A program made the translations under genes and the position numbers. From Candidatus Hydrogenedentota bacterium (GTDB lineage: Bacteria; Hydrogenedentota; Hydrogenedentia; Hydrogenedentales; JAEUWI01): a DNA stretch of 64,000 bases. The stretch spans positions 62,001 to 126,000 of the forward strand of contig JAEUWI010000014.1 of assembly GCA_016791475.1 (NCBI GenBank), written 5' to 3'. The notes below the pieces were generated by a model. The model saw nothing but the letters and a program-made list of their open reading frames with translations, ran no database searches and was not told the DNA's origin. This document shows, piece after piece, positions 39,692 to 58,318 of this stretch. Every line of letters starts with the position of its first letter. The stretch's first letter is position 1.

Positions 39692-41008
39692 TCAGGCGCG
39701 GTAGTGGGTCGCCACTTTTCTGATCGCCGCCCCATACTGCCGAATCTGCTCTTCGGTATTGCTCTCGTGGATCACAACACGGATGCCACTGGTCAGAATC
39801 GCCTCCGCTTCGGGCGTCTCCACCTTCGTGTAGTCCATATCGGTCATTCCCGCCTCTTTGATCGTCCAGTGGCCATTGAAGAATGCGTGATTCTTGAACA
39901 CATCACTGCGATGCACGGGCACAGGAATGTACCCCGCGCTGCAGGATACGCCCTCCGCCGCGAGCGCCTTGTTGAACTCGTCCCGCGTGCACTTGAGTGC
40001 CGCCGGATCGATGCGGAACATGTAGAACCAATACACGCAGCGATCTTCGGGATGGACCGCATGCGGCGTAACCCCAGGAAGATCCTGGATGTTTTCCGTG
40101 AGCAGATTGCCCAGCCGCGCGCGGGTGGAGACGATGCTCTCCAGTCGCGTGAGCTGGCCCGCAAGAACCGCCGCCTGGGGCTCGCTCATGCGGTAGTTGG
40201 TCGAAAAACTCTCCCAGCCGCTCGTGGCGCGATTGAAACCCTTGTCGCCGTACTGCTGGAGCTTCGGCCCGAAAACGGGGTGACTGCTCGCCACCACGCC
40301 GCCGTCTCCGGTGGTGATGTGCTTGGAATTCTGCAACGACCAGCACGCGATGTCGCCCACAGTACCGATGGGCTTGCCGCGATACTTCGCGCCCCAGGCC
40401 TGGCAGCAATCCTCAATCAACACGAGCTTGTGCTCGTCGGCAATAGCGCGAAGCTCTTCCAGCCTGCTTGGATTGCCGGCGAGGTGCACCGCGATGATGG
40501 CCTTCGTTTTCGGCGTGATGCGACGGCGCACATCAGCCGGATCGAGAGTAAGCTCCGACGGAAGCAGGTCCGCAAACACGGGCACGCCCTGCTGATAAAT
40601 AACACCGATGACCGTGCCGATATCGGTGATGGGTGAGGTGATCACCTCGTCGCCCGGCACCAGTCCCGCCGCGCCCACGGCAATATGCAGTGCGGCCGTT
40701 CCCGATGAGCAGGTCATCACATGCTCCAGCGGGCAGATCGCTTTAAAGCGCTCGGTGAAGATGGCTGTCTGGGGGCCCTTCCAGTAGAAGAGCGTATCCT
40801 GCTTGATCATCTCTTCCAGGCGCTCGCGCTCCGGCGCGCCAAAGCGCGGCAAGGTCGGCGACGTCGCGGTAACCGCCTTCGCGCCACCGTCAATCGCCAG
40901 CTTTTCTTCGACGCCATGAGCCGCGCCGCCCGCCGCCAGTCCGGCCAGGGTCATTCCCGCCGTGGCGGCAAGAAACTCCCGACGGGGCATTTCGTTCTTC
41001 GATTCCAT
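39692..41008 (-). CDS. DegT/DnrJ/EryC1/StrS aminotransferase-family protein with a Tat signal peptide
   Basis: 438 residues from ATG 41008, with AGGAG upstream. The N-terminus MPRREFLAATAG...LAGLAAGGAAHG is a twin-arginine-type signal. The rest is a fold-I PLP protein of the DegT family: CSSGTAALHIAVGAAGL, IEDCCQAWGAKYRG and the PLP-lysine region WSLQNSKHITTGDGG, where the lysine is retained. DegT enzymes aminate nucleotide-keto-sugars in the cytoplasm, so an exported copy is unexpected; Tat would let it fold with PLP first. It is preceded by an inverted repeat and follows the amidohydrolase operon on the same strand. Confidence 0.85.
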   Translation of the reverse strand: MESKNEMPRREFLAATAGMTLAGLAAGGAAHGVEEKLAIDGGAKAVTATSPTLPRFGAPERERLEEMIKQDTLFYWKGPQTAIFTERFKAICPLEHVMTCSSGTAALHIAVGAAGLVPGDEVITSPITDIGTVIGVIYQQGVPVFADLLPSELTLDPADVRRRITPKTKAIIAVHLAGNPSRLEELRAIADEHKLVLIEDCCQAWGAKYRGKPIGTVGDIACWSLQNSKHITTGDGGVVASSHPVFGPKLQQYGDKGFNRATSGWESFSTNYRMSEPQAAVLAGQLTRLESIVSTRARLGNLLTENIQDLPGVTPHAVHPEDRCVYWFYMFRIDPAALKCTRDEFNKALAAEGVSCSAGYIPVPVHRSDVFKNHAFFNGHWTIKEAGMTDMDYTKVETPEAEAILTSGIRVVIHESNTEEQIRQYGAAIRKVATHYRA

Positions 41009-41089
41009 GGAAAAACTCCTTTTTCGATTGCACTCAATGGAGGAGATTGCTGTTTGCAGGATGCGATATATTGAGTCGCCGCCACCAAT

Positions 41090-41246
41090 TATTTTTTCAC
41101 CACGAAGGACACGAAGCTCACGAAGGAAAACACGAAGGGCTATATTTGAGGCGCGCCTGGTGTCGTCGGACCACGCTTCGACACCACTGTGAAAAAATAT
41201 CTTCTCTTTCCTCCTTCGTGCTCTTCGCGTCCTTCGTGGCGAAAAT
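41090..41246. repeat. Imperfect inverted repeat of CACGAAGGA-type units
   Basis: The left arm ATTTTTTCACCACGAAGGACACGAAG (41090-41115) pairs with the right arm CTTCGCGTCCTTCGTGGCGAAAAT (41223-41246). Inner arms carry further CACGAAGG units. Sits between the DegT-family gene and the amidohydrolase gene. Confidence 0.85.
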
Positions 41247-41280
41247 TCATTACTTCCGGTCAATACTTAACTGTGCCTGT

Positions 41281-42057
41281 TCAATGTACGCCCAGTAGAG
41301 CACTCGCGTTTCCACCCTGCAGTTGCTCCAACGATTCATCGCTCAACGCGGACTCCTTCAACTTGAACAGTGACGATTCAAAATAGAAAAAGGGCGCATA
41401 GGACCCAAACACCAGATATTCCAGCGGGATCTGCCTGGATATCGCATCGATACCCGCGATACCCTCCAGCCAGGCGATATCAAACCAGACCTGCTTCGTC
41501 GCCACGAGCGCGTCGATCACCTCACCACGCGCGGCCCGAAAGGCGTTCAACAACACGAGCTTCAGTCCCGGCACGGAAGCAACCACATCCGCCAGCGGCG
41601 CAACGTCCACATGTGCCACCTGCATCAGGGGATGCATCATACGTTCGTCTTCCATGGTCACCACCAACTGCACGACCAGTTTCGCGGCTGAAGCCTGCTC
41701 CAGCAGCGCTTTGAACCGCCCGTCGTCGAGTGTGTAGCCGTGGTAATTGGGATGAAGCCGGATACCCTTCATCCGGTGCACTTCCGCGCAACGGCGCAGG
41801 TCCTCTTCCCACTGAGGTAGCGCCGGATTCACTGAGCCGAATGGCACGAGCACGCCATTGTCATGCAGGCGGCACGCCTCCACAAGACGCTCATTCACCC
41901 CCGCGATGTCTTTATGCAGGATACCCTCGAAAGAGCCGGTCCACGCCTGTTCCACACCGTAGTGGCTGAGCTTCGCAAGCAGGGCATCTACGGTGTCCTC
42001 CGGTGTACGACGAAAGGGCCATTGGCCGATGTAGGTATTGGTGTCTATGAAGCTCAA
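41281..42057 (-). CDS. Amidohydrolase-family protein lacking the HxH motif
   Basis: 258 residues with the TIM-barrel pattern of amidohydrolase-2 proteins: GSVNPALPQWEEDL, MKGIRLHPNYHGY and LEYLVFGSYAPFF. The first strand reads DTNTYIG where metal-binding members have HxH, and the usual GTD near the end reads GSYAP. It may therefore be catalytically altered or structural. ATGA overlap with the upstream amidohydrolase shows translational coupling. Confidence 0.82.
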   Translation of the reverse strand: MSFIDTNTYIGQWPFRRTPEDTVDALLAKLSHYGVEQAWTGSFEGILHKDIAGVNERLVEACRLHDNGVLVPFGSVNPALPQWEEDLRRCAEVHRMKGIRLHPNYHGYTLDDGRFKALLEQASAAKLVVQLVVTMEDERMMHPLMQVAHVDVAPLADVVASVPGLKLVLLNAFRAARGEVIDALVATKQVWFDIAWLEGIAGIDAISRQIPLEYLVFGSYAPFFYFESSLFKLKESALSDESLEQLQGGNASALLGVH

Positions 42058-42836
42058 CGTAACATGCCCTTTGCTTCAAGAATCGGTTTCAAGATCCGCT
42101 TCAAGTTCCCCGCCAACACCAGGGCCTTCTCGCTCTCACCGATCCGCGCGCCCATCACCTTCGCCAGTTGCGAACCAAAGCTCCGACCCGGGATATCGCT
42201 GCCGTAAATGACGCGGTCTGCCCCCAGTTCCTTCACCGCCATCTCCGTATAGCCCGCCGTGGGATCGCCGCCCGCCAGATCGGCATAGATGTTCTTGTGA
42301 GGCCGAATCGCCCGCACGCCCAGCTCCCAGTCCCCGCCGGTGTGTCCGCAAATGAAAGGCGCTTCGGGATGGCGTGCCGCAAGCCGCGTCAAGTCAATTG
42401 CCGTCGACTCACCTGGTAGATTGCCCGTGATTTTCTGCCAGGTGTGTTGAAATACGGGCGCTTTCAACTCAGCCGCGCGTTTCACAATCGCATCGGTCTC
42501 CGGAGTATCGCAGTTCTGCGCCACCCACAACTTGATCGCCACCATGGGACCATTTGCGACACAGCGTTCCAGCTCCGCCAGGCTTAGCTCGACGTGCGCG
42601 GGACTCAAATAGACCCAGCCATAGACCCGGTCGGGCCAGGCAAGACTTGCCTCGAGCACTTCGTCGTTGGCGTGTTTCAACTGCTCCGCCGTCGGCTCGG
42701 TGTGGAACTCCGTGCCCATATAGATGCACAACTTGCTCACGCCCATGCGCTCCGCCACCTCCAGCATCTTCCCCACGCGCTCCGTCGGCGTGCCGCCGTA
42801 CGCATTAATGTGGCAATGCCCGTCCCAGATCTCCAT
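42054..42836 (-). CDS. Amidohydrolase-family metal-dependent hydrolase
   Basis: 260 residues from an ATG that overlaps the stop of the nitrilase-family gene (TGATG). The metal motif DGHCHINAYGG (HxH) is at the N-terminus, followed by PFICGHTGGDWE and IYGSDIPG with the catalytic aspartate, as in amidohydrolase-2 (ACMSD-like) enzymes. No signal peptide. Its partner downstream is a paralogue that has lost these residues, so the two could form a heteromer. Substrate unknown. Confidence 0.87.
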   Translation of the reverse strand: MEIWDGHCHINAYGGTPTERVGKMLEVAERMGVSKLCIYMGTEFHTEPTAEQLKHANDEVLEASLAWPDRVYGWVYLSPAHVELSLAELERCVANGPMVAIKLWVAQNCDTPETDAIVKRAAELKAPVFQHTWQKITGNLPGESTAIDLTRLAARHPEAPFICGHTGGDWELGVRAIRPHKNIYADLAGGDPTAGYTEMAVKELGADRVIYGSDIPGRSFGSQLAKVMGARIGESEKALVLAGNLKRILKPILEAKGMLR

Positions 42837-44182
42837 CAGTTTCCCTTCGGCAACAAGGGACGGTTGTGGGGAATCTCCGCCCCAAAATCGCCCAGGCTGG
42901 TCCAGTATAGATGCTTGTTGAGGTCGACCTCCGCAACGGTGATGGTCCCCCACTCCTCCGCCCGCGCAATGACGTCGCCCTCCCGATCAAAGACGCCCGT
43001 CACCATCCAGTCGTAGCTCTTGTCGGTGTAGCTGCTGCTCACCACGTACACGTGATTCTCGCAGGCCCGCGCCGCCGCGAGGAGGGGGTTGCAGCCCGCC
43101 ACCGGAAAAGCGATAACCTCCGCGCCATTGTTGCTGAGCTGGCGCGCTACCTCCGGGAAGAAGCCGTCATAGCAAATCATCATCCCCACCTTGCCGAAGC
43201 TCGTCTCGAAGACGGGATACTCGTGGCCCGGTGTGATGCCCATATCGATCTCGGTACGCGGCAGGGTCACCTTGCGGTACTTGCCCACCAGGCCGCCCTG
43301 GGGATCGATGAGCACCGAAGTATTGTAAATCAGGTGATCCTCACGCTCCACCAGGCCAGCGACGAGGTACATGCCATGCTCTTTGGCCAGGCCGCCGAAG
43401 TACTCGGTAGAGGGGCCGGGAATAGGCTCACCCACATCGAAGTAGCTCAGGCCATTGCCCGCGCAGGTGAGCGCTTCGGGCAGCACCATGAGCGTTGCCT
43501 TCTGCTTCGCGGCCTCGGCGATAAAGGGCGCGAATTGCTTGCAGTTGTCCATCGCGGTCTTGCCGCCGCTCGGATTGTAGTGCACCGTGGCCAGGCGCAC
43601 GATGCGCGGCTCCGGTGGCGCGCTCTTGTCAAAAGAAACCGCCCCCCACTCGCACTTCGCGTTCGGCGCCCAGCGGAAGTGAAGCTCCACGATGGCCTTG
43701 GTCGCTTCCGGCGGCGCAAGGAGAATATCGCTCACTTCCGTCCACCCCTCGGCGCTGGTATCGCGCTCCTTCGGATACTCCGGCTCCGCCACGGGCGGAT
43801 TGGCTCCGTCGAAAGACTTGGCCCCCTTGAAGTCGTGGCGCACGATCTGATCCTGCGCCCCGCGCCATTGCACCCGGGCGAGGGCGGATCGCCGGGGCGA
43901 TTCAACGTTGGTCAATTTGCGCAGGGCGTGAAAGCGATAGTGTTGTCCGCCCTCAACCGCAAAGGTTTTCACCCAGCGCCCGTCGAGCCCTTCCCGTTCG
44001 TCCGCCTCGATAATGAAGGCGCCCTGGCCATCGGGGCCACCGGCGGGATCATAGTCAAAGGCGGGCCGGGTCCCCTCCCGAACCTCCATGGGCACCCATC
44101 CCTCCGGCGCAGCCGCGAGGGCCGCTGCCGCGCCGCAAAAGACGAATATGGAAAGTAGCGCATTCCTGAAACGAGATTGCAT
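42836..44182 (-). CDS. Exported carbon-nitrogen hydrolase (nitrilase superfamily) with N-terminal beta domain
   Basis: 448 residues. A signal peptide ([18 protein letters not shown]) is followed by a beta-rich domain to about residue 190, probably carbohydrate-binding-like, then a nitrilase fold. The Glu-Lys-Cys triad is complete: VLPEAL, YRKVTLP and [10 protein letters not shown]. Such enzymes cleave amides, nitriles or ureas. I choose ATG 44182; ATG 44191 is an alternative but sits only 2 bp from AGGAG. It is first in a coupled operon with two amidohydrolases. Export of this enzyme but not its partners is notable. Confidence 0.88.
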
Positions 44183-44275
44183 CGATGCCATAGCTCCTGT
44201 GCCCGACATGTTGGAGCATCCACTATACAATGTGACACGGAAGACTTCCAAACCGAAGTCGCCGTGCGAAAGCGA

Positions 44276-44315
44276 CAAAAAAGCCTGCCCGAAACCGTCA
44301 AGGCTTCGAGCAGGC
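44276..44315 (-). terminator. Intrinsic terminator of amtB-glnB
   Basis: Minus strand GCCTGCTCGAA...TTTCGGGCAGGC stem followed by TTTTTTG, just after the glnB stop. Confidence 0.85.
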
Positions 44316-44338
44316 GCAACCTCGCCTGAATCGTGGGA

Positions 44339-44695
<357 letters not shown>

Positions 44696-44713
44696 TTAAC
44701 GCAATCCGAGATA

Positions 44714-46042
44714 CTACAGGTCGTAGCCCACTTCGCCGTGCTCGGAAATATCCAATCCAACCTCTTCGCCTTCCGCGTCTATCCGAAGGCCGATCACTTT
44801 GTCCACGAACTTAAGTATAAGGTAGGAAACGATCAGCGCATAGATAATTGTAAAAAACGACGCAAAGGTCTGCACGCCCACCTGTCGGACGATGTTCAGA
44901 TCGCTCACCCACCCGCCGAAAGTTCCCGACCCGAGCACTCCGACCAGCAGCGTGCCCACGAGACCGCCACCGCCGTGAACACCCACGACGTCAAGCGCGT
45001 CATCATAGCCAAACTTGTGCTTGAGCCGCGTGGCGGCCCAATAACAGAAAATCCCGGAAGTCAGGCCGATCACAACTGCGCCGAAGGGCCCGACCGAACC
45101 CGAGGCCGGCGTGATCGCGGCCAGCCCCGCTATGGCGCCCGTCGCAAAACCAAGTGCGCTCGTCTTCCCGTTCTTCAACCGCTCAATCACGGCCCAGACC
45201 AGCCCCGCCACGCACGGAGAAATCTGCGTGACCAATACCGCCATCGCCGCCTGACCGCTGGCTTGCAGGGCGCTTCCTCCGTTAAAGCCAAACCAGCCCA
45301 CCCACAACATCGCCGTACCGCCCATGGTCATCGTAAGGCTGTGGGGCATCATGGGCACCTTGCCATACCCTTTCCGCGGCCCAACCAGAATTGCCGCAAC
45401 CAGAGCCGCCGCCGCCGCAGTCAAGTGAACAACAATGCCCCCGGCAAAGTCGATCGTGCCCAGGTCCGCGAGAAAAGCGCCCGGACCGCCCCAAACCATG
45501 TGACAAATGGGAAGATAGACCAGCGCGACCCAGATCACCGTAAAAAGCAGCACGGCGGAAAATTTCATCCGTTCCGCGAATGCACCGATGATCAAACCCG
45601 GCGTGATGATTGCAAAAGTCATCTGAAACACGACAAAGAGCGCTTCGGGAATGGTGCCGCGCAGAGAATCTGGCCTGACCCCGGAGAGAAAAAGCCGGTC
45701 CAGGCCCCCGATGAAGGCATTCAACCCACGGCTGCCCTCGGCCATTCCGGCGCTGCTGAAGGCCAGGCTGTACCCGAATGCCACCCAGATCACGCTCACC
45801 ACCGCGGTAATCAGGAAGCACTGCAAGAATAGCGACAGCACGTTCTTCGTGCGGACCAGGCCGCCGTAAAACATGGCCAGTCCGGGGATCATCATGAAAA
45901 GCACCAACGCCGAGGCCACAAGGATCCAGGCCGTGTCTCCCCCTTGAAGCGTGTCCTGGGCACGCGCCACCGAGGGGACCAAAAGGGTAAGCCCGGGCAG
46001 GGCCAGCCAGGCGGATCGGCGAATATTGCCGTACGATTGCAT
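44714..46042 (-). CDS. amtB: Ammonium transporter AmtB
   Basis: 442 residues from the ATG after AAAGGAGA. A signal peptide (to about VARAQD) precedes eleven membrane helices, as in E. coli AmtB. Signatures are AMFYGGLVRTKN, DFAGGIVVHLTAAAAALVA (with the first pore histidine), LWVGWFGFNGGSAL and DDALDVVGVHGGGG (second pore histidine). Transports ammonium/ammonia and is gated by the neighbouring PII protein, 36 bp downstream. Confidence 0.97.
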   Translation of the reverse strand: MQSYGNIRRSAWLALPGLTLLVPSVARAQDTLQGGDTAWILVASALVLFMMIPGLAMFYGGLVRTKNVLSLFLQCFLITAVVSVIWVAFGYSLAFSSAGMAEGSRGLNAFIGGLDRLFLSGVRPDSLRGTIPEALFVVFQMTFAIITPGLIIGAFAERMKFSAVLLFTVIWVALVYLPICHMVWGGPGAFLADLGTIDFAGGIVVHLTAAAAALVAAILVGPRKGYGKVPMMPHSLTMTMGGTAMLWVGWFGFNGGSALQASGQAAMAVLVTQISPCVAGLVWAVIERLKNGKTSALGFATGAIAGLAAITPASGSVGPFGAVVIGLTSGIFCYWAATRLKHKFGYDDALDVVGVHGGGGLVGTLLVGVLGSGTFGGWVSDLNIVRQVGVQTFASFFTIIYALIVSYLILKFVDKVIGLRIDAEGEEVGLDISEHGEVGYDL

Positions 46043-46229
46043 GCGTCTCTCCTTTGGGGCGCGAAAAAACACACCCCACCCATTGCCAGAAAGTATTTCT
46101 CAAAGGCAGACGCTAAGCATGCGCTTCCCAAAAGCGCAACCCGGACACAGCATTAAGGCAACTCCACTGCAGATAGCCCCACCTACTCAAATTGCCAATC
46201 CAACCGTCGGCCTTCTCGACTCCGCGCGC

Positions 46230-46257
46230 ATTATACAGACCCACGACAACAAAGCAA
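46230..46257 (-). promoter_or_regulatory. Sigma-70 promoter of amtB-glnB
   Basis: Minus strand TTGCTT (46252-46257) and perfect TATAAT (46230-46235) with 16 bp between. It gives a leader of about 180 nt. I saw no sigma-54 consensus here. Confidence 0.65.
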
Positions 46258-46329
46258 ACTGAGAATTTCGCGCCCACGACGAAAAAATACAGCCACTGAT
46301 AGGCCCGACCGTGTTCAGGCCTTCCCGAA

Positions 46330-48240
46330 TCACTCCAGGCGCCAGTTGAACCGCATCAACTTCGCGCCATCGCCAAAGTAAATTCCATGCTCTTCGATGG
46401 CAAAGCCGCAGCGGATATCGCCGGGATACTCCGCGATCACGTCCACCGCATAGCTCGTCGGATCTACGCGGAATACCTTCTTGCCCGAGAGGCCATAGAG
46501 CATTCCATCCTTCCACGGGCGCAGCGAGATATCATGCACATTGCCCACGCCGAGCTTGGCCGTGTGGATGATGGCATCCGCGTCGAGGTCATGAACAAAG
46601 AGCGTCTCTTCGCCGCTGATGCCGTAAAGCTTGCGGCCGAGGATACACATCGCGCGAATCGCCCCATCCCCCGGCACCACCACACGCTCGAATTTCAGTG
46701 CCTTCGTTGAAGGATCAAAAGCAAAGAACTTCGCCTCCTTTTCCGACGGCGTCGTCCCGCCACCACCGACAATGCTGGTCCCGCCGAATACGAGGTCGGT
46801 TGTGGAGTCATACGCCAGCGCAACAATGGATTGGTTCTTTACAAGCTGGGGATAGTTTTCCAGCAACGTGTCCGATTCCGGATCCCACACGCCGAGAGAG
46901 CCGCCGAGCACGCCATACTCCGGAAAGCTGCCGATGTAGATCTTCTCCTCGGGGCCGCGGATCATGGCACGGGGGCGCAGGTGGCCGGGCCCGATGTTGC
47001 CGAAGCCCTGGGGATTATTCGACTTCTCGCGACCATAGATCCAAGGCTTCGTTGGGTCCCACTTGGAGAGGAAGGAGCCGGGGTAAGCGCAGACGTAAAG
47101 TGTTCCGTGATGGTCAAGCATGCTGTAGATCTCGCCGCCGACCTCGGTTGGGTTGCCGGGATTTTCCAGCGCGCCCGTAGCCGGGTCATAGTGGAAGAGC
47201 TCGTTGGGCATCCAGGTGCCGCCGTAGATGCGACCTAAGGGGCCATTCTCCACCATGAACACGCCCGAGCCCGCGCCCTTGTAGTCGAAGGTCCGCTTCT
47301 CCACCGTGCCATCCGGTGCGACGAGTTCGTAGGTCCGGTCGATGGTGACATTCGCCACGCGACGACCGTCTTTCAGCGTCAGCTGATTCACCGCCGGTGC
47401 CGGGCTCTCTGCCACGCGGACTCCTTCCGCCTCCACCACCAGCACCGCCGAGCCCTGCTGCGGCACACCCGCCGCATCCGGCGTCATGGTAATCGCGTTG
47501 ATGTAAATCTTGCCATCCACCCCCTTGTACATCCCCGCGAAGGTCTGCTTCTCGTGGGCGCGGTATTCATCGGGAAGGATGGATTCATGCGCGCCCGTAG
47601 CGGGATCGAAGCGCACGATGTTCGCCCGCCCATAACCAATTGCGACGTAGATCTTGCCATCGGGCCCCGTCAATATCTCGCGGCTGTATTGCTGCGTGTC
47701 GTCCATGACACCATGGTCCGTCAGCGCACCCGTCGCGGGATCATAGGACACGACCTTGGCCCCTGGGAAAGTGCACCCATAGATCTTTTTGTCGGGGCCC
47801 GTGGTGAACATCCACAAATAGGACTCCGACTCCGCCGGTCGCCCCACCACCTGAATCGCCTTCTCCGGCGCTTTCGGATCGAAAACCAGAATCTGGCCGC
47901 TATCGCCGGGATCCGGGCCTTCGTGCGTGCCCAGATATATTCGTTCATCCGGCCCCACCATAAAGCCCCAGGCGCCCGTACCCACGGGCGACTGAAACTG
48001 CTCCGACGCACCCGAATCAGGATCAATGGCGACCAGAAAGAGCTTCCCCCCCTCCTGACGGAAGTTGATGTAGATTCGCTCGGAACCCGGCGTCGGTCCC
48101 GGCCCCACGATGGTGCCCATCAGCCCCGCCTTCATGACGGGGATTCCGATTTCTTCAAATATGGGCTCGGCCTGGGCGAAGGCATCCGTAGCCGCGATGA
48201 AGGCGACCAGCGCTAGAGCGAAAGAGTGAATACGGTTCAT
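46330..48240 (-). CDS. Secreted beta-propeller (PQQ/WD40-like) protein
   Basis: 636 residues with a signal peptide (HSFALALVAFIAATDAFA) cut before QAEPIFEE. The rest is repeating beta-sheet blades of the form tGPDGkiYvaigyG ... vrFDPaTGah, about seven to ten of them, with many ATGAL/PDGKIY motifs. This resembles SMP-30/PQQ-like and virginiamycin-lyase-type propellers, but no catalytic set is obvious. Probably extracytoplasmic, binding or enzymatic role unknown. The gene runs on the minus strand between amtB and the 48.4-kb repeat. Confidence 0.8.
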   Translation of the reverse strand: MNRIHSFALALVAFIAATDAFAQAEPIFEEIGIPVMKAGLMGTIVGPGPTPGSERIYINFRQEGGKLFLVAIDPDSGASEQFQSPVGTGAWGFMVGPDERIYLGTHEGPDPGDSGQILVFDPKAPEKAIQVVGRPAESESYLWMFTTGPDKKIYGCTFPGAKVVSYDPATGALTDHGVMDDTQQYSREILTGPDGKIYVAIGYGRANIVRFDPATGAHESILPDEYRAHEKQTFAGMYKGVDGKIYINAITMTPDAAGVPQQGSAVLVVEAEGVRVAESPAPAVNQLTLKDGRRVANVTIDRTYELVAPDGTVEKRTFDYKGAGSGVFMVENGPLGRIYGGTWMPNELFHYDPATGALENPGNPTEVGGEIYSMLDHHGTLYVCAYPGSFLSKWDPTKPWIYGREKSNNPQGFGNIGPGHLRPRAMIRGPEEKIYIGSFPEYGVLGGSLGVWDPESDTLLENYPQLVKNQSIVALAYDSTTDLVFGGTSIVGGGGTTPSEKEAKFFAFDPSTKALKFERVVVPGDGAIRAMCILGRKLYGISGEETLFVHDLDADAIIHTAKLGVGNVHDISLRPWKDGMLYGLSGKKVFRVDPTSYAVDVIAEYPGDIRCGFAIEEHGIYFGDGAKLMRFNWRLE

Positions 48241-48385
48241 GGGTACTGCGATTCCTTCCGGGAAGAGGGTTGTATCTGCATCGCCGCACGATAGCAAAAT
48301 ACGTGATCGCCGAGCCACCCGCCAGAGCCCCAACTTCAATTGGTCGTTCACTGGCTGGAGATTGCGAAAACCCAGGCAAAAAATC

Positions 48386-48501
48386 TTCCCAAAGATCTTC
48401 ACAGATCCGCACAGATAAGAGATCGCGCACTGAAGAAGCGGCTGCCACGGGGGCGCATAGCCTCTCCCTATCTGTGAAGATCTGTGCGGATCTGTGGGAA
48501 A
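48386..48501. repeat. Imperfect inverted repeat of CACAGATC/TCTGTGCGGATC-type units
   Basis: The left arm TTCCCAAAGATCTTCACAGATCC (48386-48408) extends to AAGAGA (48422). The right arm (48463-48501) repeats ATCTGTGAAGATCTGTG and GGATCTGTGGGAA. The arms use the same short units in permuted order. The rest of 48241-48617 shows nothing else apart from the RBS of the next gene. Confidence 0.8.
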
Positions 48502-48617
48502 CTATTTTCCCGCGTGAGTTGATTACATGCGGACCATGATTTTAGCAAGAGCAACTGGTACCATGGCCTCTTACACGTCCCGATCGCTGGACGTGCCCTC
48601 AGCCCAAGGAAGTCACG

Positions 48618-51473
48618 ATGCATTCTTACCGAATCCTCTTGTTCCTCATCATCCTTGCCTCCTCTGCGATAGGCACCGCATCGGCCCAGTATCTCGAGCC
48701 CCCCGAAAGCCCCGGTCCGGAAGCGTGGCCCTTCCTCACCGATCTCGCCGCGCCGATCCAATGGCGCTTTCACTGGTCACGCGAGACACCCGGCAACGGA
48801 GAAGTATCGTTGCGTGGCGGCGTTCGCGTGGAGGCGAGTTTTCCCGATCCCGATGGCGTGCTGGAAACGGCCTATCAGGATCTCGACACCTTCTTCACGG
48901 CGGCATCCATCCCTCGGGACGGTGCCTACCGCATCGTGACGGAGCAGATGCCCACCGAAACTTTCGAAGCCTTCCAAATCACCATAACCGAGACGGAGTG
49001 CCGCATTCAGGCGAACGACACCGAAGGCATCCGTCGCGGCATTTTCTTTCTGGAGGATGAACTGCTCCGCGCCGAGGGCCCCTTCCTGAAGCCCGGTGTT
49101 ACCCAGCGCCAACCGTTCGTCCGCAACCGCATTTCACGCTGCTTCTTCGGCCCCATCAAGCGCGAGCCCAAATTCAAGGACGAGCTGATGGACGCGGTGG
49201 ACTACTATCCAGAGCACTACCTGAACAAAATCGCCCACGACGGGGTGAACGGTCTCTGGCTCACAATTGAATTCAAAGACATCGTCCAGACCTCCCTCAC
49301 CCCCGTCGTGTCTCCCGGTCGCGAGCAGCGCCTCGCAAAGTTGCGCGCCACCGTCGCCAAATGTCGCCGCTACGGCATCGAGGTGTTCCTCTTCTGCATC
49401 GAGCCCCGCGTGATGGATGCCGATCATCCCCTGCTCGTGGCCCACCCCGAAATCGGTTCCAAAACACCTGGTACTGGACGCCTCTTCTGCCCATTCCCCG
49501 AAGCGGGACAAAAATACCTTTACGAAGCGATGAACGACCTCTTCACCCAGGTCCCCGGCCTCGGCGGACTGATCAACATCAGCTTCGGTGAGCGCTCCAC
49601 CACCTGCCTGAGCGGCGCAGACGAACAGTGGAAGCTCCTGTGCCCCACCTGCTCGTCCAAAACACCCGGCGAAATACTGCGCGCTTCCCTCGCGGCCATG
49701 GAACAGGGAATGCACGCGGCGAATCCGAATGCGAAATTCATCTCCTGGCTCTATGTGCCGGAGAATGGCACCGGCCCGCAGCGCGATCTTGCACCCCTCC
49801 GCGAAATGGCTCAGCACACGCCGCCCGGCGTCATTTGCCAGATCAACTTCGAATCGGGCGGCGAGCGCGAGCAGCTTGGCAAGCCCCGCCACGTGGGCGA
49901 CTACTGGCTTTCCTACATCGGCCCGAGCGCGGTCTATCGCGATGTCGCGGCGGGCGTCGCCGAGAGCGAGGGGAAACTGGGTGCGAAGCTCCAGGCCTGC
50001 AACTCTTTTGAAGTCTCCACGGTGCCTCATGTGCCCGTGCCCGGCAACCTATATCAAAAGTACGCCGAGATGCGCCGCCTCGGCGTCACCTCGGTCATGC
50101 AGTGCTGGTACATCGGAAGCCTCCCTTCCGTTATGAACCGCGCGGCGGCCAGCGAACTCGCCTTCGCCCCGGAAGGACAATCCCAGGACGATTTCCTCCT
50201 CCGCCTCGCGCAGCGGGATTGGGGTGCGCAGCATGCACCGGAAGTCGTGCGCGCCTGGAAACTTTTCGCCGAGGCCTACAGCCATTACCCCCTCACCAAC
50301 GCCTTCCAATACTACGGCCCCATGCACGATGGCATCGGCTGGCCCCTCCACTTGAAGCCCGTGCACAAGAACCTGTCGCCCGTATGGAAGTTGGAATACC
50401 CGCCCAGCGGCGACCGCATCGGCGAGTGCTTTTCCGGCTCGCACACGCTTCCAGAAATGCTCGAACTGTGCGAACGACTCTCCGATGGCTGGCAGCAGGG
50501 CCTGAAGGTACTGCGCGCGTTGAAGCCCGAGTTTGAGGGCGATCCCAACCGGCTCCTCGATCTCGCAAACGCCGAGGCCCTTGGCATTCACTTTCGCACG
50601 GGCTACAACATCCTCCGCTTCTACGATCTTCGCGAGCGCTTGCTCTACGGCGATGCGGAAGAGGGCGATGCCCTGCTGGAGGAACTCCGCGCCATCACCA
50701 ACGAAGAAATTGAGAACACCGCGGCCGTGGTGGCACTATGCGCGCAGAATCCCTACCTCGGGTTTCAGGCCGAAGCGGAAGGCTATAAGTATTTCCCCGA
50801 ACGCCTCCAATGGCGCGACGCGCAGTTGCGGGCAATGCTGGCAACGGAGTTTGTTGAGGCGGAACGGGCCATCGCGGCGGGCGATCGCGTGTTCCCGGAA
50901 TTGACCGGCCTCGTCGAAAGCCCGCTGCACTATGCGGCAGTGAAGGCTGCGTCCGACTTTGGCGCGCAGTGGAAAACCGAGGCGACGTGGACCGCTATCG
51001 CGGGAATTGCCCAGGGCCCGCATGAGCCCGCGTGGTCATGGAAAGCCACCCACGACGACAGCGCGATATACGTGAACGTCGTATCCGACGCATCCCCCGA
51101 CTGGCGGCCCGTAGCGGCGGTCCTGCAGCTCGAACCAACGCACATCTATCCGCGCCGCACCTTCCGCGCCGACCCCAACGGCAAGCGCGATCTCCGCACC
51201 GTCTGGCTGGGTCCCGATGCCGATTGGGAGGCCGCCTGCGATGTCATCGAAGGCCAGCAGCACTTCCGCTTCCGCATTCCCATGGGAGCTTTTGAAGGCG
51301 AAGCCGATTCGGCGCGTCCCATGCGCGTCAACGTTGAACTCACCTTCCTGTCGGCGGATAAGAAAACTCAGATGGTCCGCACCTGGGCACCCGCCGCCGA
51401 GCCGCGGCTCCTCCACCGCCTGGGCTATGGCGGTGCGAACCCGGCGGAAATGGGATGGCTGGTAAGAAAATAG
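48618..51473 (+). CDS. Secreted glycoside-hydrolase-like protein with C-terminal CBM9-like domain
   Basis: 951 residues with a signal peptide (to about TASAQ) and AAGGAAG upstream. Residues about 60-170 resemble the alpha/beta N-terminal domain shared by GH20 and GH67 enzymes (IQANDTEGIRRGIFFLED). A barrel-like region follows with GVNGLWLTIEF, YGIEVFLFCIEP and HPEIGSKTPGTGRLFCP. A helical region and then a CBM9-type beta sandwich (about 790-950, WSWKATHDDSAIYVNVV) complete it. It is probably an exported glycosidase or glycan-binding enzyme; the exact family cannot be fixed from sequence reading. Confidence 0.68.
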   Translation: MHSYRILLFLIILASSAIGTASAQYLEPPESPGPEAWPFLTDLAAPIQWRFHWSRETPGNGEVSLRGGVRVEASFPDPDGVLETAYQDLDTFFTAASIPRDGAYRIVTEQMPTETFEAFQITITETECRIQANDTEGIRRGIFFLEDELLRAEGPFLKPGVTQRQPFVRNRISRCFFGPIKREPKFKDELMDAVDYYPEHYLNKIAHDGVNGLWLTIEFKDIVQTSLTPVVSPGREQRLAKLRATVAKCRRYGIEVFLFCIEPRVMDADHPLLVAHPEIGSKTPGTGRLFCPFPEAGQKYLYEAMNDLFTQVPGLGGLINISFGERSTTCLSGADEQWKLLCPTCSSKTPGEILRASLAAMEQGMHAANPNAKFISWLYVPENGTGPQRDLAPLREMAQHTPPGVICQINFESGGEREQLGKPRHVGDYWLSYIGPSAVYRDVAAGVAESEGKLGAKLQACNSFEVSTVPHVPVPGNLYQKYAEMRRLGVTSVMQCWYIGSLPSVMNRAAASELAFAPEGQSQDDFLLRLAQRDWGAQHAPEVVRAWKLFAEAYSHYPLTNAFQYYGPMHDGIGWPLHLKPVHKNLSPVWKLEYPPSGDRIGECFSGSHTLPEMLELCERLSDGWQQGLKVLRALKPEFEGDPNRLLDLANAEALGIHFRTGYNILRFYDLRERLLYGDAEEGDALLEELRAITNEEIENTAAVVALCAQNPYLGFQAEAEGYKYFPERLQWRDAQLRAMLATEFVEAERAIAAGDRVFPELTGLVESPLHYAAVKAASDFGAQWKTEATWTAIAGIAQGPHEPAWSWKATHDDSAIYVNVVSDASPDWRPVAAVLQLEPTHIYPRRTFRADPNGKRDLRTVWLGPDADWEAACDVIEGQQHFRFRIPMGAFEGEADSARPMRVNVELTFLSADKKTQMVRTWAPAAEPRLLHRLGYGGANPAEMGWLVRK

Positions 51474-52093
51474 TGAACTATGAATAGTGAATTGGAACCT
51501 TTCAAAACGAAGGTGCTCTTGACGGCACTTCGTCTTTTTTCTCCTTTCGCTATTCTTAATGGTTCATCCGGTTTGGTCGTACATTCTCGTTCGGACTGGA
51601 AATACTCTGGGAACTCTTTGCTTCTTTATGAGCCAGGGAGTTGCATCAAGAGCAAGTCACCACGCGTGATTGGATTTCATTTTCAGTCATTGCCCCGGAG
51701 GGGCGGCGGAACTTAGTTCGCCGCGGCGAATGGAGCCTAAGCGGAACCCTGGGATCTGGATTATCTATAGCCTAAAACCACCGGAGGGGGTGACGGAGAT
51801 TTTGGCAAAGCGACGTATTCTCGCTACCTGGCGCGGCTCTTTGAGAGTGTACCAACAGTAGTACTCCTGCGTGGTTTCCGTCGCCCCCTTCGGGGGCTGG
51901 AGTGCGGATTCAATCGAGATCCCAGGGTTCCGCTCGTGCCTCGCTCCACCCTGGGCTAAGTTCCGCCGCCCCTCCGGGGCCAAAGCATTCGAAAATCAAG
52001 CACTTTCAGATCCTTGCGGAGCTGGCCACAAAAGAGAAAGTACGCTCAAGCCGGATGAACCTTCTTAATTCACTATTCTAAATTCTCTATTCC
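51472..52093. repeat. Nested inverted-repeat region, about 620 bp, noncoding
   Basis: The outer arms TGAATAGTGAATT (51480s) and AATTCACTATTC (about 52067) pair. Inside them GGTTCATCCGG (51561-51571) pairs with CCGGATGAACC (52051-52061), and GTACATTCTC pairs with GAGAAAGTAC. The inner element at 51687-51990 is annotated separately. Short frames here are not convincing genes. Confidence 0.75.
51687..51990. repeat. Inner inverted repeat of GCCCCGGAGGGGCGGCGGAA type
   Basis: The left arm (GCCCCGGAGGGGCGGCGGAA then CTTAG, from 51692) pairs with the right arm (CTAAG then TTCCGCCGCCCCTCCGGGGC, 51956-51980). Next, GCGGAACCCTGGGATCTGG pairs with GAGATCCCAGGGTTCCGC. The central GGAGGGGGTGACGGAG pairs imperfectly with CCGTCGCCCCCTTC. 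Confidence 0.88.
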
Positions 52094-53988
52094 CCCAATG
52101 CCCGCAGCGTATCAAAATCAAAGTGCTGCAAAAACCCAAAGCTGAACAGACTTGGCGAATCGGTGTATTTCCCCCGCGCTTCCATGAACTCGACCAGCGA
52201 TCCCGGCATCTCCGTGGACTCTACGGCATCCACCAATCCCGGATTCAACGCATCGACGACGAGCGCGATCAGCCCGCTTTCCGGACCAGCGGTGTGCAGC
52301 GTGATCGACGTTACCGCTTTCGCCGCGCGGAACCATTCGCAGACCGCAGCCACTTGGGCTGCTTGAATCGCCAGGGCGCGCTCGTCGGTTGCGTTCACAA
52401 TCATGGGGTATTGGTAGGGCCCCGCGCCGCCCGCGAGATTGCCGTTCTGGGCGAAGGGCGCCACCGCAACGGCCTGCTTGCCCGAATCGAGAAGGGGCTT
52501 GCACAGGGCCGATGCCCCCTTGAAGCCTTCGTCATTCAGCACCACATGCACCTCTGTTCTATCCGCACCCGCCGGTGTGAAACCCGCCGCGGGTATGGTC
52601 CAGTCGGCGCTCTTGAGGCGATAGGCGGTGGCGAGGGCCCCGGCCTCGGACTCCAAGTCGTTTTCTACCGTCATGAGACTGACCGGGATATAACCGATTA
52701 GTTCGCGCAAGACCTTGGCCTGTTCTCGCTTCCACGACTCACGCGCCGCGCCGACCGCCGGAACCGCCGGAAGCGTGATGGCTTTCGCTGCGGCGATGCC
52801 CAAAGACACAACGCTCGCGTTGTCCGCAGGTATACCGACCTTCAACTGCTCGTCGCTGAGCAATTCGCCTTCCACCGAGAGTTCCTCGGGCGTCCACTCG
52901 GCCTCGGGCACCAGGTGTTGGTCGATGAACTTGTAAAACTGCAGCCGATTGTCGAGATCGTAATTGTGCGTGCCCGGATCTTCGTTGATGTGAAATTCAA
53001 AATCAGCGCCCGCGCCGTAGAGCGCGAAGACAGGCTTCACCGGATCGTATATCGCGGGCAGGGTCCGGGCCGCCTGAAAGCAGCACTCGTCCTGTGCGTT
53101 GTAGATAAGCAACGTCGGCCGGGGCGCGAACAGCGCCGTCAGGTGCGGGTAATCCGCCACGGTCAGCATGTTGCTTGGCACCTGCTCGATATCGCCGATG
53201 TCCGCGCCATTATCGATCCGCACGCCCATGGCGCCGTGGCCCGCCACGGGCACGATCACCGAGATGCGCTCGTCCAGTGCACTCATCAGCGCCGTCTGCC
53301 AGCCGCCCCCGGAGAGCCCCGTCATCCCAATGCGGTTCTTGTCCGCCCGAGGATGGGCCTGAAGCACGTCCAGCGCGCGGGAAAGGGACAAATAGAAGAG
53401 GGAAACGCCGCTTACGCCGGCCGCATCCAGATAGGCAATGCGGTCATGGGAATACTCCACGCCACCGAGTTCGCCCATCCCAATCCACTCCGGGTGAATG
53501 TTCAGCACCCCGCGCTTGGCCAGGTTGATGCAGCGCGTTTGCTCCTCCGGGCGCCATTTACCTTCGGCGTAATGCCCGTTCACATTCAGCACCGTCGGCA
53601 GCCCTGTTGCATCGCCGTCGGGTTCATAGAGCAACGCCGGATTCCAGAAGCCCGGCGCCACCTCATAGAGCAGTTTGCGGATGCGGTAGCCCTTGCCCGT
53701 TTCGATGTCCTCCGTCCACCGAATCTGCACCTCGCCCGATGTCCACGCCTCGGGCACCCCCTTGAGCACGACTTCATTGAGATACCTCTCGCGCAACGCT
53801 GTCGCCTCCGCCTCCCAGGCCTCGCGGGACTCGGGCACGGAGAACGCGGGCACCTTCGGGTGAAGATAGCGTTTGATTTCAGCGCCCGCTACGTCTTCCG
53901 GGACAGCGGCGCGGACAAGGGCGTCGTCCATACTCGCGGCGCCCGTGAGGCTGGCGGCGGCAAGGGCGAGAGCGGCAACAAAGGTCAT
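52087..53988 (-). CDS. Secreted acetyl-xylan-esterase/dienelactone-hydrolase-like alpha/beta hydrolase
   Basis: 633 residues from ATG 53988, with AGGAGA upstream. A signal peptide (VAALALAAASLTGAAS) is followed by a large alpha/beta-hydrolase domain. LPTVLNVNGHYAEGKW gives the oxyanion site, RIGMTGLSGGGWQT the nucleophile and LIYNAQDECCF the acid region. HNYDLDNRLQFYKFID probably contributes the histidine. A second, weaker domain fills residues about 400-633. The pattern resembles the acetyl xylan esterase/AXE1-like group common in planctomycetes. Probably de-esterifies polysaccharides outside the cytoplasm. Confidence 0.75.
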   Translation of the reverse strand: MTFVAALALAAASLTGAASMDDALVRAAVPEDVAGAEIKRYLHPKVPAFSVPESREAWEAEATALRERYLNEVVLKGVPEAWTSGEVQIRWTEDIETGKGYRIRKLLYEVAPGFWNPALLYEPDGDATGLPTVLNVNGHYAEGKWRPEEQTRCINLAKRGVLNIHPEWIGMGELGGVEYSHDRIAYLDAAGVSGVSLFYLSLSRALDVLQAHPRADKNRIGMTGLSGGGWQTALMSALDERISVIVPVAGHGAMGVRIDNGADIGDIEQVPSNMLTVADYPHLTALFAPRPTLLIYNAQDECCFQAARTLPAIYDPVKPVFALYGAGADFEFHINEDPGTHNYDLDNRLQFYKFIDQHLVPEAEWTPEELSVEGELLSDEQLKVGIPADNASVVSLGIAAAKAITLPAVPAVGAARESWKREQAKVLRELIGYIPVSLMTVENDLESEAGALATAYRLKSADWTIPAAGFTPAGADRTEVHVVLNDEGFKGASALCKPLLDSGKQAVAVAPFAQNGNLAGGAGPYQYPMIVNATDERALAIQAAQVAAVCEWFRAAKAVTSITLHTAGPESGLIALVVDALNPGLVDAVESTEMPGSLVEFMEARGKYTDSPSLFSFGFLQHFDFDTLRALGE

Positions 53989-54139
53989 GGCGATTCTCCT
54001 GACGGATTCGGGCCTGCTATATTGAGACACGCCGGGTAGTATGGGGAAAAAATCGCGGAGAGGCAAGTGCGCGAGCGTGGCGTGTTCGAAGTGGGTATTA
54101 TGGGGCATCAGAACTTTGGCGCATCAATCAAAAGGACGA

Positions 54140-54189
54140 CCCAGTGGTCCCAGTGGTCCCAGTGGTCCCATAAGACCCATAAGACCCAT
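54140..54189. repeat. 9-bp tandem repeat with two unit types (CCCAGTGGT, CCCATAAGA)
   Basis: Three CCCAGTGGT units run directly into two CCCATAAGA units plus CCCAT, with the 9-bp phase kept. The second unit is identical to the repeat at 23176-23234. Confidence 0.9.
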
Positions 54190-54210
54190 TCCATCAACCC
54201 AAGCGTTCTA

Positions 54211-55701
54211 TCACCGCTTCCCCACCGCCCCCAGTTTCCCGACAAAAACACCCCGCGCCTCGCGCTGCAACGCAATCGCGGAGGCCTTTCCCTCCTCGGG
54301 CGAAGCTTCCAGGCTCACGATCCGCTCGTTGATCCAGTCAATGAAAAACTGAAGCGCCTCGGCCTTCGGCTTGAAGGGCGCGCCCTTCACTTCCACATAA
54401 TACGGCGCTGTGGCCCCGATCCGGAACGTCGTGGAATTCGACCCCAGCGCTCGAATCAGAAACCAGCCACTCTTCTCGAAGGTCAACGAAAACCGCCCGG
54501 CCGCCGCCAGTTCCTTCGGCGTCTTCTCCTCCACCACCTCACCATTCACCACCACTTGAACAATCGACACCGGCTCCGCACCGAGCAATGCGGCCTCCGC
54601 GTTCAGCACGGCACCGGTATCGACCTGGAATACATGCCCGGGACGCTCTCCCTCCACCGTCACGTCCAGCAGCGGGCCATTCGTCACCATGGTCCGCCCA
54701 GCGCGAAGCCCCTCCCACCAGGCCTTATAGTCGAGCTTGTCGCCGAGGTAAACATAGACCCGGTTGTAGCCCACGGGGTTCTTCAGCACGCCCGAGGCGC
54801 TCCCCGCCGACGGCGGAATGCGATAACCCGCGTTCAGGACCTGGTAGTAAATGTGCTGCGTCCAGAAGCCATTGCCCAGCGGCGAGGGGAAGTCCTCTTT
54901 CGGCCGCGCCTTGCCCCAGGCCTCGTTGTCCATCATCTCACCGTGCTGCATGTGGTTGTTTACGATACCAATCGTGTGAAAGCGCCCGAGGGCCAGGGCC
55001 GCGGGCATGTCCCACCAGAAGGGCTTCTCCATGTCGATGTGTGCCCCTGCGGCCAGTTGTTGCTCGGCGAATTCCAGCGCGGAGGGCGTCTCACGACCCG
55101 CCTGCGTCACGTCCATGGGCGGCGCATTGTAATACATGAAGGCCCCGCCACCCCGCTCATCCTCGCCACCGAGCAGGTAAATAAAGCGATTGTCCAGCAG
55201 CGTCTGCAAAGGTTTTTCCGGCAGGGGCTCGCTGAGCCAGGGATTCGTCTTGTTCCACCACGTGATCACCGGCGCCACGTGCAGGTCTTCGGCGCGAATA
55301 AGCAGGGGCACCGCCTCGACAGGCCGATGGATATGGGTTTCGCCGGACCACCAGCCCCGCGCCGCCATATCCACCATGCGTCCCAGGCTGACCGCTTCGA
55401 CTCGTTCCGCGCTTGCCGCGATCGCAATCGTCCCTTCCCGCGACTCAAACTCCGGCCCGCGCGCCACCTTGTATCGATAAACACCCGGAACGACGTCAAA
55501 AGTCGCCTCCCCTTCGCAGGTAACGTGATCATGCCACCGGGGCAGCGTAGGATGCTTCACCGGCGTGCCGGCAGCATCCCACACGTGAATGCGACATGGC
55601 GCAAATTCACCCGTCTCAGCGGAGCGCACCTCGAACTTCAGGGATTCGGCATGCGCCGCAAGCGAGACAATGGCCAGTACGGCCAGAAACATTACTCTCA
55701 T
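54211..55701 (-). CDS. Secreted CehA/McbA-type (PHP-like) metallohydrolase
   Basis: 496 residues from ATG 55701; a signal peptide ends near AHAESLK. A beta domain of about 90 residues precedes a PHP-like metal site: WWSGETHIHRPVE (HxH). Later MQHGEMMDNEAW and RAGRTMVTNGPLLDVTVEG match the CehA/McbA family of esterase or phosphoesterase-like proteins. Named members hydrolyse carbaryl; the natural substrates of environmental paralogues are unknown. Divergent from a second CehA/McbA gene across a 190-bp region containing an inverted repeat. Confidence 0.82.
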   Translation of the reverse strand: MRVMFLAVLAIVSLAAHAESLKFEVRSAETGEFAPCRIHVWDAAGTPVKHPTLPRWHDHVTCEGEATFDVVPGVYRYKVARGPEFESREGTIAIAASAERVEAVSLGRMVDMAARGWWSGETHIHRPVEAVPLLIRAEDLHVAPVITWWNKTNPWLSEPLPEKPLQTLLDNRFIYLLGGEDERGGGAFMYYNAPPMDVTQAGRETPSALEFAEQQLAAGAHIDMEKPFWWDMPAALALGRFHTIGIVNNHMQHGEMMDNEAWGKARPKEDFPSPLGNGFWTQHIYYQVLNAGYRIPPSAGSASGVLKNPVGYNRVYVYLGDKLDYKAWWEGLRAGRTMVTNGPLLDVTVEGERPGHVFQVDTGAVLNAEAALLGAEPVSIVQVVVNGEVVEEKTPKELAAAGRFSLTFEKSGWFLIRALGSNSTTFRIGATAPYYVEVKGAPFKPKAEALQFFIDWINERIVSLEASPEEGKASAIALQREARGVFVGKLGAVGKR

Positions 55702-55780
55702 CGCTTTCAGCGCTCCAATCGATTGCATTTGCGACCACACCTGCTTGAACCCAATTGCCCCATACTACTCGATTGGCCTC

Positions 55781-55889
55781 CATTGCTTCTTCCTGCCTTT
55801 TTCTTTGCGCCTTAGCGCCTTTGCGTGCACAATAAAGGATTATGAATTGCCATCGCACGCAAAGGCGCTAAGACGCAAAGGAAGCAATG
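55781..55889. repeat. Inverted repeat of AAAGGCGCTAAGACGC units between the two CehA/McbA genes
   Basis: The left arm CATTGCTTC...TTTGCGCC-TTAGCGCCTTTGCGTGC (55781-55828) pairs with the right arm GCACGCAAAGGCGCTAAGACG...GAAGCAATG (55855-55889). The right arm includes AGGAAG, the ribosome site of the gene at 55894. Confidence 0.88.
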
Positions 55890-55893
55890 CACC

Positions 55894-57582: not shown

Positions 57583-57585
57583 ACA

Positions 57586-57726
57586 ATAGAGACACGGAGG
57601 CACGGAGAAGAAAAAGAGCTCGCGAGGTTCCCATGCTGAGTCATGACAAACTTGAAGTCTGTTATGCCTCTCTTTCTTCCCTCTCTCGTATTCTTTTCTT
57701 CGTGCCTCCGTGGGCTCCGTGGTCAA
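57586..57726. repeat. Inverted repeat of CACGGAGGCACGGAGAAG units
   Basis: The left arm GAGACACGGAGGCACGGAGAAG (57589-57610) pairs with the right arm CTTCGTGCCTCCGTG then GGCTCCGTGGTC (57699-57724). It lies between two converging genes. Confidence 0.88.
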
Positions 57727-57742
57727 TGCATATTGATTCTTT

Positions 57743-58318
57743 TTACTCAGCAGGCACCGTTTTCTCAGCCTCCTGCCGGAGGTATTCCTCGATGGATAGA
57801 TCGCCGAAGTACAGCCCCGCGATCACCCCTTCGCCCTCCCGCACGCGGATGACGGCATGGGCGCCCTCCTCCGTTCGGCTTTGCCCGCGATAAGCCGCCT
57901 CGGCGGCCGGCGCCTGAAACTCGTCCATGTAGTAGCGGTCAAAAGGCAGTGTCACCCAGAGCGTTGAATTTCCCGCGCCGCCGCCATAGGCCTTCACTTT
58001 CAGATAATCACCCGACGCCGGCGGGCTCAACGTCACGTCCGCAATCTTCGCAAGCCCCACTTCGTCCACCCGAAGCAGCGCATAGGCCGTTTCGGTGCCG
58101 TCAAAGAACATACCGGTCCAGTTCTCAAGCTGCATATCCGGGAAGCTCAGGGCTACATAACGCCCGCGAAACGCGTCGTAGGGGTCCACCGGTCCGCAGC
58201 GGAACTTGTACGCCACGCCCGACGCCAGCACATCCTCGCGCGATCCAATCATGAGGAAAGGCACCGCCAACTGGGCAAGCGCCATAACCACGAAAGCAGC
58301 CCATTGCACGGTTTTCAT
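57743..58318 (-). CDS. GDYXXLXY-domain membrane protein
   Basis: 191 residues from the ATG overlapping the DUF2157 stop (ATGA). One N-terminal membrane helix, then an exposed beta domain holding GDYLKVKAYG, the variant here of the GDYXXLXY motif, and DPYDAFRGRYVALS, both typical of the family. Function unknown. The family regularly follows DUF2157/DUF4401 genes, as here. Confidence 0.85.
   Translation of the reverse strand: MKTVQWAAFVVMALAQLAVPFLMIGSREDVLASGVAYKFRCGPVDPYDAFRGRYVALSFPDMQLENWTGMFFDGTETAYALLRVDEVGLAKIADVTLSPPASGDYLKVKAYGGGAGNSTLWVTLPFDRYYMDEFQAPAAEAAYRGQSRTEEGAHAVIRVREGEGVIAGLYFGDLSIEEYLRQEAEKTVPAE

Follow-up and report, generated by a model that had tools for sequence, protein, structure and literature searches.

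Gene-less palindromes made of inverted tandem word arrays in a Hydrogenedentota genome share their arms with the borders of resident GxxExxY genes, which encode putative nucleases

Several described systems combine short intergenic repeats, inverted arms or a small partner gene, and each of them resembles in part the elements reported here. REP and REPIN sequences are high-copy, short intergenic palindromes with a single GTAG/CGTC-tagged hairpin; one small gene of the same genome, the RAYT gene, is bordered by the same palindrome, and the gene-less copies are presumably mobilised in trans; for REP families see PMC3733652. The IVS of 23S rRNA with its S23 or four-helix-bundle protein (TIGR02436), for example the Coxiella IVS, consists of a small ORF enclosed by long, imperfect inverted repeats at its ends; it sits in the rRNA and is removed by RNase III (PMC4990558). 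Short tandem intergenic words are also found as the heptamer repeats of Xanthomonas and Nostoc and as the STRR sequences of cyanobacteria. In the accessible part of the account of the heptamers, the repeat GGGAATC forms 70-75 inverted pairs in Xanthomonas, and the 7-bp G-rich words are interpreted as quadruplex formers with no gene partner reported in that part (PMC4692102). MITEs of IS elements, finally, are non-autonomous inverted-repeat elements.

The elements described below differ from all of these. Compared with REP/REPIN-RAYT, their arms are tandem word arrays, there are many word classes per genome with one per nuclease, and the enzyme is an unrelated PD-(D/E)XK nuclease; tandem-word arms and a nuclease as the partner gene likewise set them apart from MITEs, and no ends of an IS transposase were recognised in them. 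The IVS has a helical-bundle protein and a 7-bp word period, whereas the present elements are intergenic, have no ORF in the loop and repeat their words every 8-10 bp.

The window is a 64,000-nucleotide stretch of a Candidatus Hydrogenedentota genome (contig JAEUWI010000014.1, positions 62,001 to 126,000), in which an earlier note had proposed a family of inverted repeats at four loci. All four are present, and all are intergenic. Element 1 (41094-41245) is of word class CACGAAG; an inverted-repeat (IR) search places its arms at 41094-41127 and 41212-41245, and its word arrays run from 41101 to 41125 on the plus strand and from 41214 to 41238 on the minus strand. Element 2 (48386-48501), of class CACAGAT, forms a long stem when folded, with words at 48400 and 48410 (plus) and at 48470, 48480 and 48490 (minus) that together span 48400-48496. 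Element 3 (55795-55886) is of class CGCAAAG/CGCTAAG, with arms at 55800-55828 and 55855-55883 and word arrays at 55803-55825 and 55858-55880; it is the one element of the four whose arms (55800-55883) have the opposite orientation, minus before plus. Element 4 (57586-57726), of class CACGGAG, is flanked by two convergent genes and has arms at 57593-57614 and 57691-57712, its word arrays extending from 57593 (plus) to 57721 (minus). The loops measure 26-90 bp and contain no ORF, so that all four elements are gene-less, with no GxxExxY gene (see below) inside. The four word types are variants of a single degenerate 7-mer, CRCRRAN, repeated with a period of 8-10 bp and 1-3 linker bases between words, and every one of the four elements is an inverted pair of tandem CRCRRAN arrays. 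The words do differ from locus to locus, as the earlier note had it, but they are not unrelated.

Such structures are not expected by chance. In a 284-kb sample, made up of the window and eleven further 20-kb stretches chosen arbitrarily from its genome, the IR search found 14 inverted repeats, compared with 0.0 in dinucleotide shuffles. A blind word rule, which accepts arrays of at least two CRC[AGT]RAN words spaced 8-11 bp apart and pairs opposite-strand arrays less than 300 bp apart, recovered exactly the four elements within the window; over the whole 284 kb it returned 8 pairs. Reversing the sequence gave 1 pair, and 20 permuted words averaged 0.15 with a maximum of 1. The four elements are also not unique local hairpins, since the 7.7-Mb genome contains 42 occurrences of the word CACGAAGGACACGAAG (at most 1 mismatch) and 44 near-copies of the 23-nt arm of Element 3, CGCAAAGGCGCTAAGRCGCAAAG (at most 2 mismatches), with none for the backward control of the word or the control of the arm. 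As proposed, the four share one plan and almost certainly one kind of mechanism. The further proposal that the elements are unlike MITEs holds in part only, as there are subfamilies of gene-less copies whose loops or interiors are conserved and which look MITE-like.

The window's genome and its relatives were searched for genes of the GxxExxY (TIGR04256) and four-helix-bundle (TIGR02436) families. The window's genome has six GxxExxY genes, and all six lie between inverted arrays of CRCRRAN-type words, namely CGCAAAG, CACGAAG, CACGGAG, CGCAAAT, CACAGAT and CACGAAT, among which are the four word types of the window. At several gene-bearing loci a complete palindrome stands on either side of the gene. 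When whole arms were compared, each of the 8 window arms matched a resident GxxExxY locus best, a different locus for each element and with both arms in agreement; the best locus scored 22-31.5, the second best 9-15.5, and shuffled sequence at most 13.5. The cognate locus is C55 for Element 1 (arm scores 26 and 22; second best 13 and 12), C43 for Element 2, whose left arm is identical to it over 29 of 29 nt, C9 for Element 3, and C23 for Element 4 (22.5 and 31.5, with 15.5 and 14.5 for the second best). When word order is shared in this way, the arms have a common descent and were not invented independently. They are thus inherited or copied, with one word class for each nuclease lineage, and the view that the words are unrelated inventions of a repeat-making process does not survive the comparison.

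These matches bear on a purely local origin, in which the hairpins, whether or not they serve the host as terminators, mRNA stabilisers or nucleoid sites, would arise by slippage and template switching and stay where they were made. Slippage and template switching typically yield tandem words and palindromes, which speaks for this origin, as do the intergenic positions and the chimeras of two word classes and mixed-word arrays that were seen. We nevertheless regard it as very improbable: an exact order of degenerate words is common to distant loci, as in the 29-nt identity and the 44 copies of the 23-nt arm; the same word recurs with the same nuclease subfamily in different phyla; and there were no Rfam matches across window positions 40000-59000 and no terminator-like signal called at the four elements. 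One set of composite elements was observed in the congener G002 (L338, L342 and L345), where a CGCAAAG hairpin with a near-identical loop and flank occurs in all three. Its neighbour is a CACGAAT element in two of the copies and a CACGAAG array in the remaining one, so that modules recombine or insert beside each other.

Mobilisation by a Y1-family transposase of the genome has a precedent in REPIN-RAYT systems, where intergenic palindromes are mobilised by an enzyme acting in trans, and the window's genome has 14 matches to Y1_Tnp (PF01797). Paired word palindromes are missing, however, from all 8 of these loci that were examined; two unpaired word arrays stand about 1 kb apart at one of them, and several carry other palindromes (CAGGGGGTTGACCATTCCTGGTCGACA, CGTGGCTGTCCCGTCG), whereas word arrays stand at 6 of 6 GxxExxY loci. 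The ends of the window elements also lack a GTAG/CGTC tag. The RAYT was rejected as the partner of the word palindromes on the count of 0 in 8, and this explanation is the least probable of those considered; in being unlike REP, the elements are as the earlier note described them. The REP-like palindromes near the Y1_Tnp (RAYT-type) genes at L362, L365, L367 and L368 form a family of their own, and similar ones occur at L105 (7410) and L110 (18908).

The partner protein is small, roughly 125 residues, and matches TIGR04256 (E 1.8e-42) and PF13366 (PDDEXK_3; E 4.9e-41). Across 20 divergent members five residues do not vary, E27, D67, E77, K79 and Q91; this is the PD-(D/E)XK nuclease pattern together with a QxxxY-like motif, as known from the RecB/Cas4 group. 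A confident AlphaFold (AF2) model with a pLDDT of 93.4 has Cas4 SSO0001 as its closest solved structure (Z 9.6 over 100 residues); further structural matches are to other PD-(D/E)XK nucleases, including Hjc and RecE, with Z values below 8 not distinctive, and the first Foldseek rows are lambda exonuclease, SSO0001 and LHK-Exo. From the model, the fold is predicted to be Cas4/lambda-exonuclease-like; the D...ExK active-site residues are intact, and the protein is a putative nuclease.

Comparison of orthologous sites shows that the elements are present, absent or different at the same intergenic positions in related genomes. The neighbours of Element 1 are conserved on both sides in three congeners at 69-77% identity, and the gap between the aligned blocks, 350-363 bp long in the window, is shorter in two congeners, at 129-138 bp; the gap has no word array in G001, G002 or G003, the locus being split over two contigs in the third congener. 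The accessory status that had been proposed is supported for Element 1, which is absent from three congeners, and for Element 2 as well. Conversely, at 42052-42093 the window has no element and the three congeners carry other tandem-word or palindromic sequences. Another orthologous gap holds a CGCAAAT palindrome in the window's genome and CACGGAA plus CACGAAT arrays in the congener G003, and each of the two genomes has GxxExxY genes bordered by the words in question. Gene-bearing units can be seen in the same way: in Bacteroides finegoldii, one bounded by TTCACCACAGAGG...CCTCTGTGGTGAA lies between radA and the gene of an FAD protein, an interval of 13 bp in Parabacteroides, and in Sphingomonas parapaucimobilis one lies between fabD and fabG. 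Filled and empty pairs within one species were sought in a plasmid collection and none was found, the empty sites coming from other species or genera; congeners differ by 20-30% at the compared sequence.

Copy number within the genus and the order follows the presence of a gene, with one exception. In the two genus members where a gene bordered by CGCAAAG was found, the arm CGCAAAGGCGCTAAGRCGCAAAG has 44 and 72 copies; the two members where no such gene was found have 9 and 2. Tandem CACGAAG words number 0-2 in ten members of the order without GxxExxY and up to 130 in others, and they are more numerous in genomes with a known CACGAAG-bordered gene than in the rest (p 0.005, a comparison that precedes the discovery of two further genomes with such a gene). 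G002 is the exception, with 101 tandem CACGAAG matches and yet no CACGAAG-bordered gene among the three GxxExxY genes examined there; such a gene may have been lost, may be absent from the assembly or may not be required. The distribution of the gene also bears on a cellular role, in which nuclease and words would form a system of genome maintenance or defence, with the nuclease acting on, or guided by, dispersed word sites. Nucleases like RecB, Cas4 and lambda exonuclease often process DNA ends in repair and defence, and chi-like dispersed sites offer a precedent. Against this stand the patchy distribution of the gene, which 10 of 68 members of the order lack, the several different nuclease-word pairs in one genome, the non-orthologous positions of the elements, and a PADLOC search that returned no match for the GxxExxY protein, and we judge a cellular system to be highly improbable.

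The association of gene and words extends far beyond this order. A scan across phyla, with one genome per species, gathered 80 GxxExxY loci from many bacterial phyla and from Methanothrix archaea; no stretch usable for scanning was conserved across a broad GxxExxY alignment and a narrower clade was used instead, so that these loci represent mainly the 'PGLLE' clade. Of the 80 loci, 79% have three or more copies of a single CRCRRAN word no farther than 400 bp from the gene, a share that falls to 5% when distal sequence of these loci is counted and to 15% when the word is reversed. The other 21% of the genes have no clear word array by this count. In addition, upstream and downstream flanks align in inverted orientation with a score of at least 16 at 53% of 116 GxxExxY loci, against 4.7% for mismatched flanks. 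Phage records gave no GxxExxY match, and viral contigs gave one.

Furthermore, the type of word follows the protein. A tree was made from the domains of 157 GxxExxY proteins, after removal of N-terminal extensions that are translated words; on it the word changes 45 times, against 87.3 in shuffles (minimum 79), and its seventh and last letter changes 6 times, against 38.9 (minimum 32); an untrimmed tree agrees. When a protein is paired with the one most like it in a different phylum, the two words agree in 28 of 61 cases (12.0 expected), and among proteins with a called word an N-terminal FDxLS goes with CACGAAG in 11 of 11, compared with 4 of 111 others. Each nuclease lineage has its own word, a tracking that could be plain co-inheritance and therefore marks gene and word as a unit, which is distinct from recognition. 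Covariation of residues and word letters among independent pairs gave nominal matches only: LT/LS where the domain begins went with word letter 5 (8 of 8, p 0.008 before correction), and a C-terminal N with word letter 2. As to the N-terminal extensions, predicted N-termini of the MNHRDTETQRE type (L128, L135, L139, L153 and similar) are in-frame translations of CACAGAG word arrays, which means that element arms are read into proteins. Peptides at N-termini that are spurious or fused are likely to arise in this way.

How might these elements spread? Taken together, we consider it reasonably probable that the window palindromes are gene-less members of a superfamily of nuclease-plus-word-array elements, that they spread in trans and that the nuclease recognises the words. 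The full form would be a pair of inverted tandem arrays around one GxxExxY gene, or doubled on both sides of it. The nuclease would recognise its own word array, as a duplex or perhaps as an extruded hairpin or cruciform or as a single strand during replication, and would cut or trim the DNA there to make an end; repair or insertion after the cut could then copy the element to a new intergenic site, in a joining step that may use host functions. Gene-less palindromes would be carried in trans, as REPs and MITEs are by their transposases.

The main rival to spreading by the nuclease is homing, in which the palindromes pre-exist or spread by other means and GxxExxY genes are selfish endonuclease genes that enter word palindromes through cutting and repair copying. 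Loci with a palindrome on either side of the gene look like gene entry, or like recombination between two palindromes; a homing enzyme and its target would be expected to show the same correlation of word and protein, and the nuclease fold fits. Homing leaves the spread of the gene-less palindromes unexplained, however, and is at odds both with the simple arm-gene-arm insertions that exist between otherwise adjacent genes and with the rarity of CGCAAAG palindromes where the cognate gene is not found, and we hold it to be unlikely. Spreading by the nuclease is the reading we retain: the evidence suggests that each nuclease reads its words and is responsible for dispersing the repeats, and the gene-less palindromes are probably spread in trans.

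Four-helix-bundle genes of related genomes show the same arrangement with another word length. At their loci (L031-L060), 17 of 20 strong genes are bordered by inverted tandem arrays, almost all with a period of 7 and with words such as TTGATAG, GTTGGCG, AGGCTTT and TAGGGAC, and by analogy the heptamers of Xanthomonas and Nostoc may belong to this class. A gene-less heptamer palindrome was observed at L110 (15293-15450). Within the window, a different, long nested inverted repeat was met at 51692-51980 and about 51470-52110, with arms GCCCCGGAGGGGCGGCGGAACTTAG and AGCGGAACCCTGGGATC that are 96-100% complementary; the repeat itself lies between TATGAATAGTGAATT and AATTCACTATTCTAAATT, heptamer-like words that recall the four-helix-bundle class. 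The word AGGGACNNN (seen at L122 6478-6654, L123 5806-6049 and L125 1148-1544) defines a third class; it has a 9-bp period and occurs at 173 places in the window's genome (G000) and 461 in G001, counts for which the backward control is also high. Its arrays are mostly one-sided and palindromic at some sites, and no partner gene was found for it. Elsewhere, L107 carries at 15248-15463 a perfect 35-bp inverted repeat, CGGGTGCCACCTCAATCGAGCAACGCTCGTTTGGG, with a 146-bp spacer.

The open-access literature, which most subscription papers and preprints lie outside, holds no description of the word elements or of a link between GxxExxY and words; the family name occurs there, with no description of the function of the protein. 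The word-array elements are apparently a widespread and undescribed class. Tentatively, and at somewhat less than even confidence, they may be seen as minimal mobile elements of bacterial phyla and archaea, in which a Cas4/lambda-exonuclease-like nuclease of about 125 residues reads the tandem words proper to its lineage and copies both the gene-bearing form and many gene-less ones to new intergenic sites with no known transposase chemistry, and of which the four-helix-bundle and IVS elements are a parallel 7-bp branch. If the proposed relation of nuclease and words is true, word-coded peptides such as HRDTETQRE at predicted N-termini would be explained as translated element arms, and the pairing of protein and word, with about 15 word types that have at least two genes in the set tested, would offer, ready for use, a natural collection of DNA-recognition specificities. 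A role would be found for a very common family of 'hypothetical' nucleases, and a large share of the unexplained intergenic palindromes of many phyla would gain an origin.
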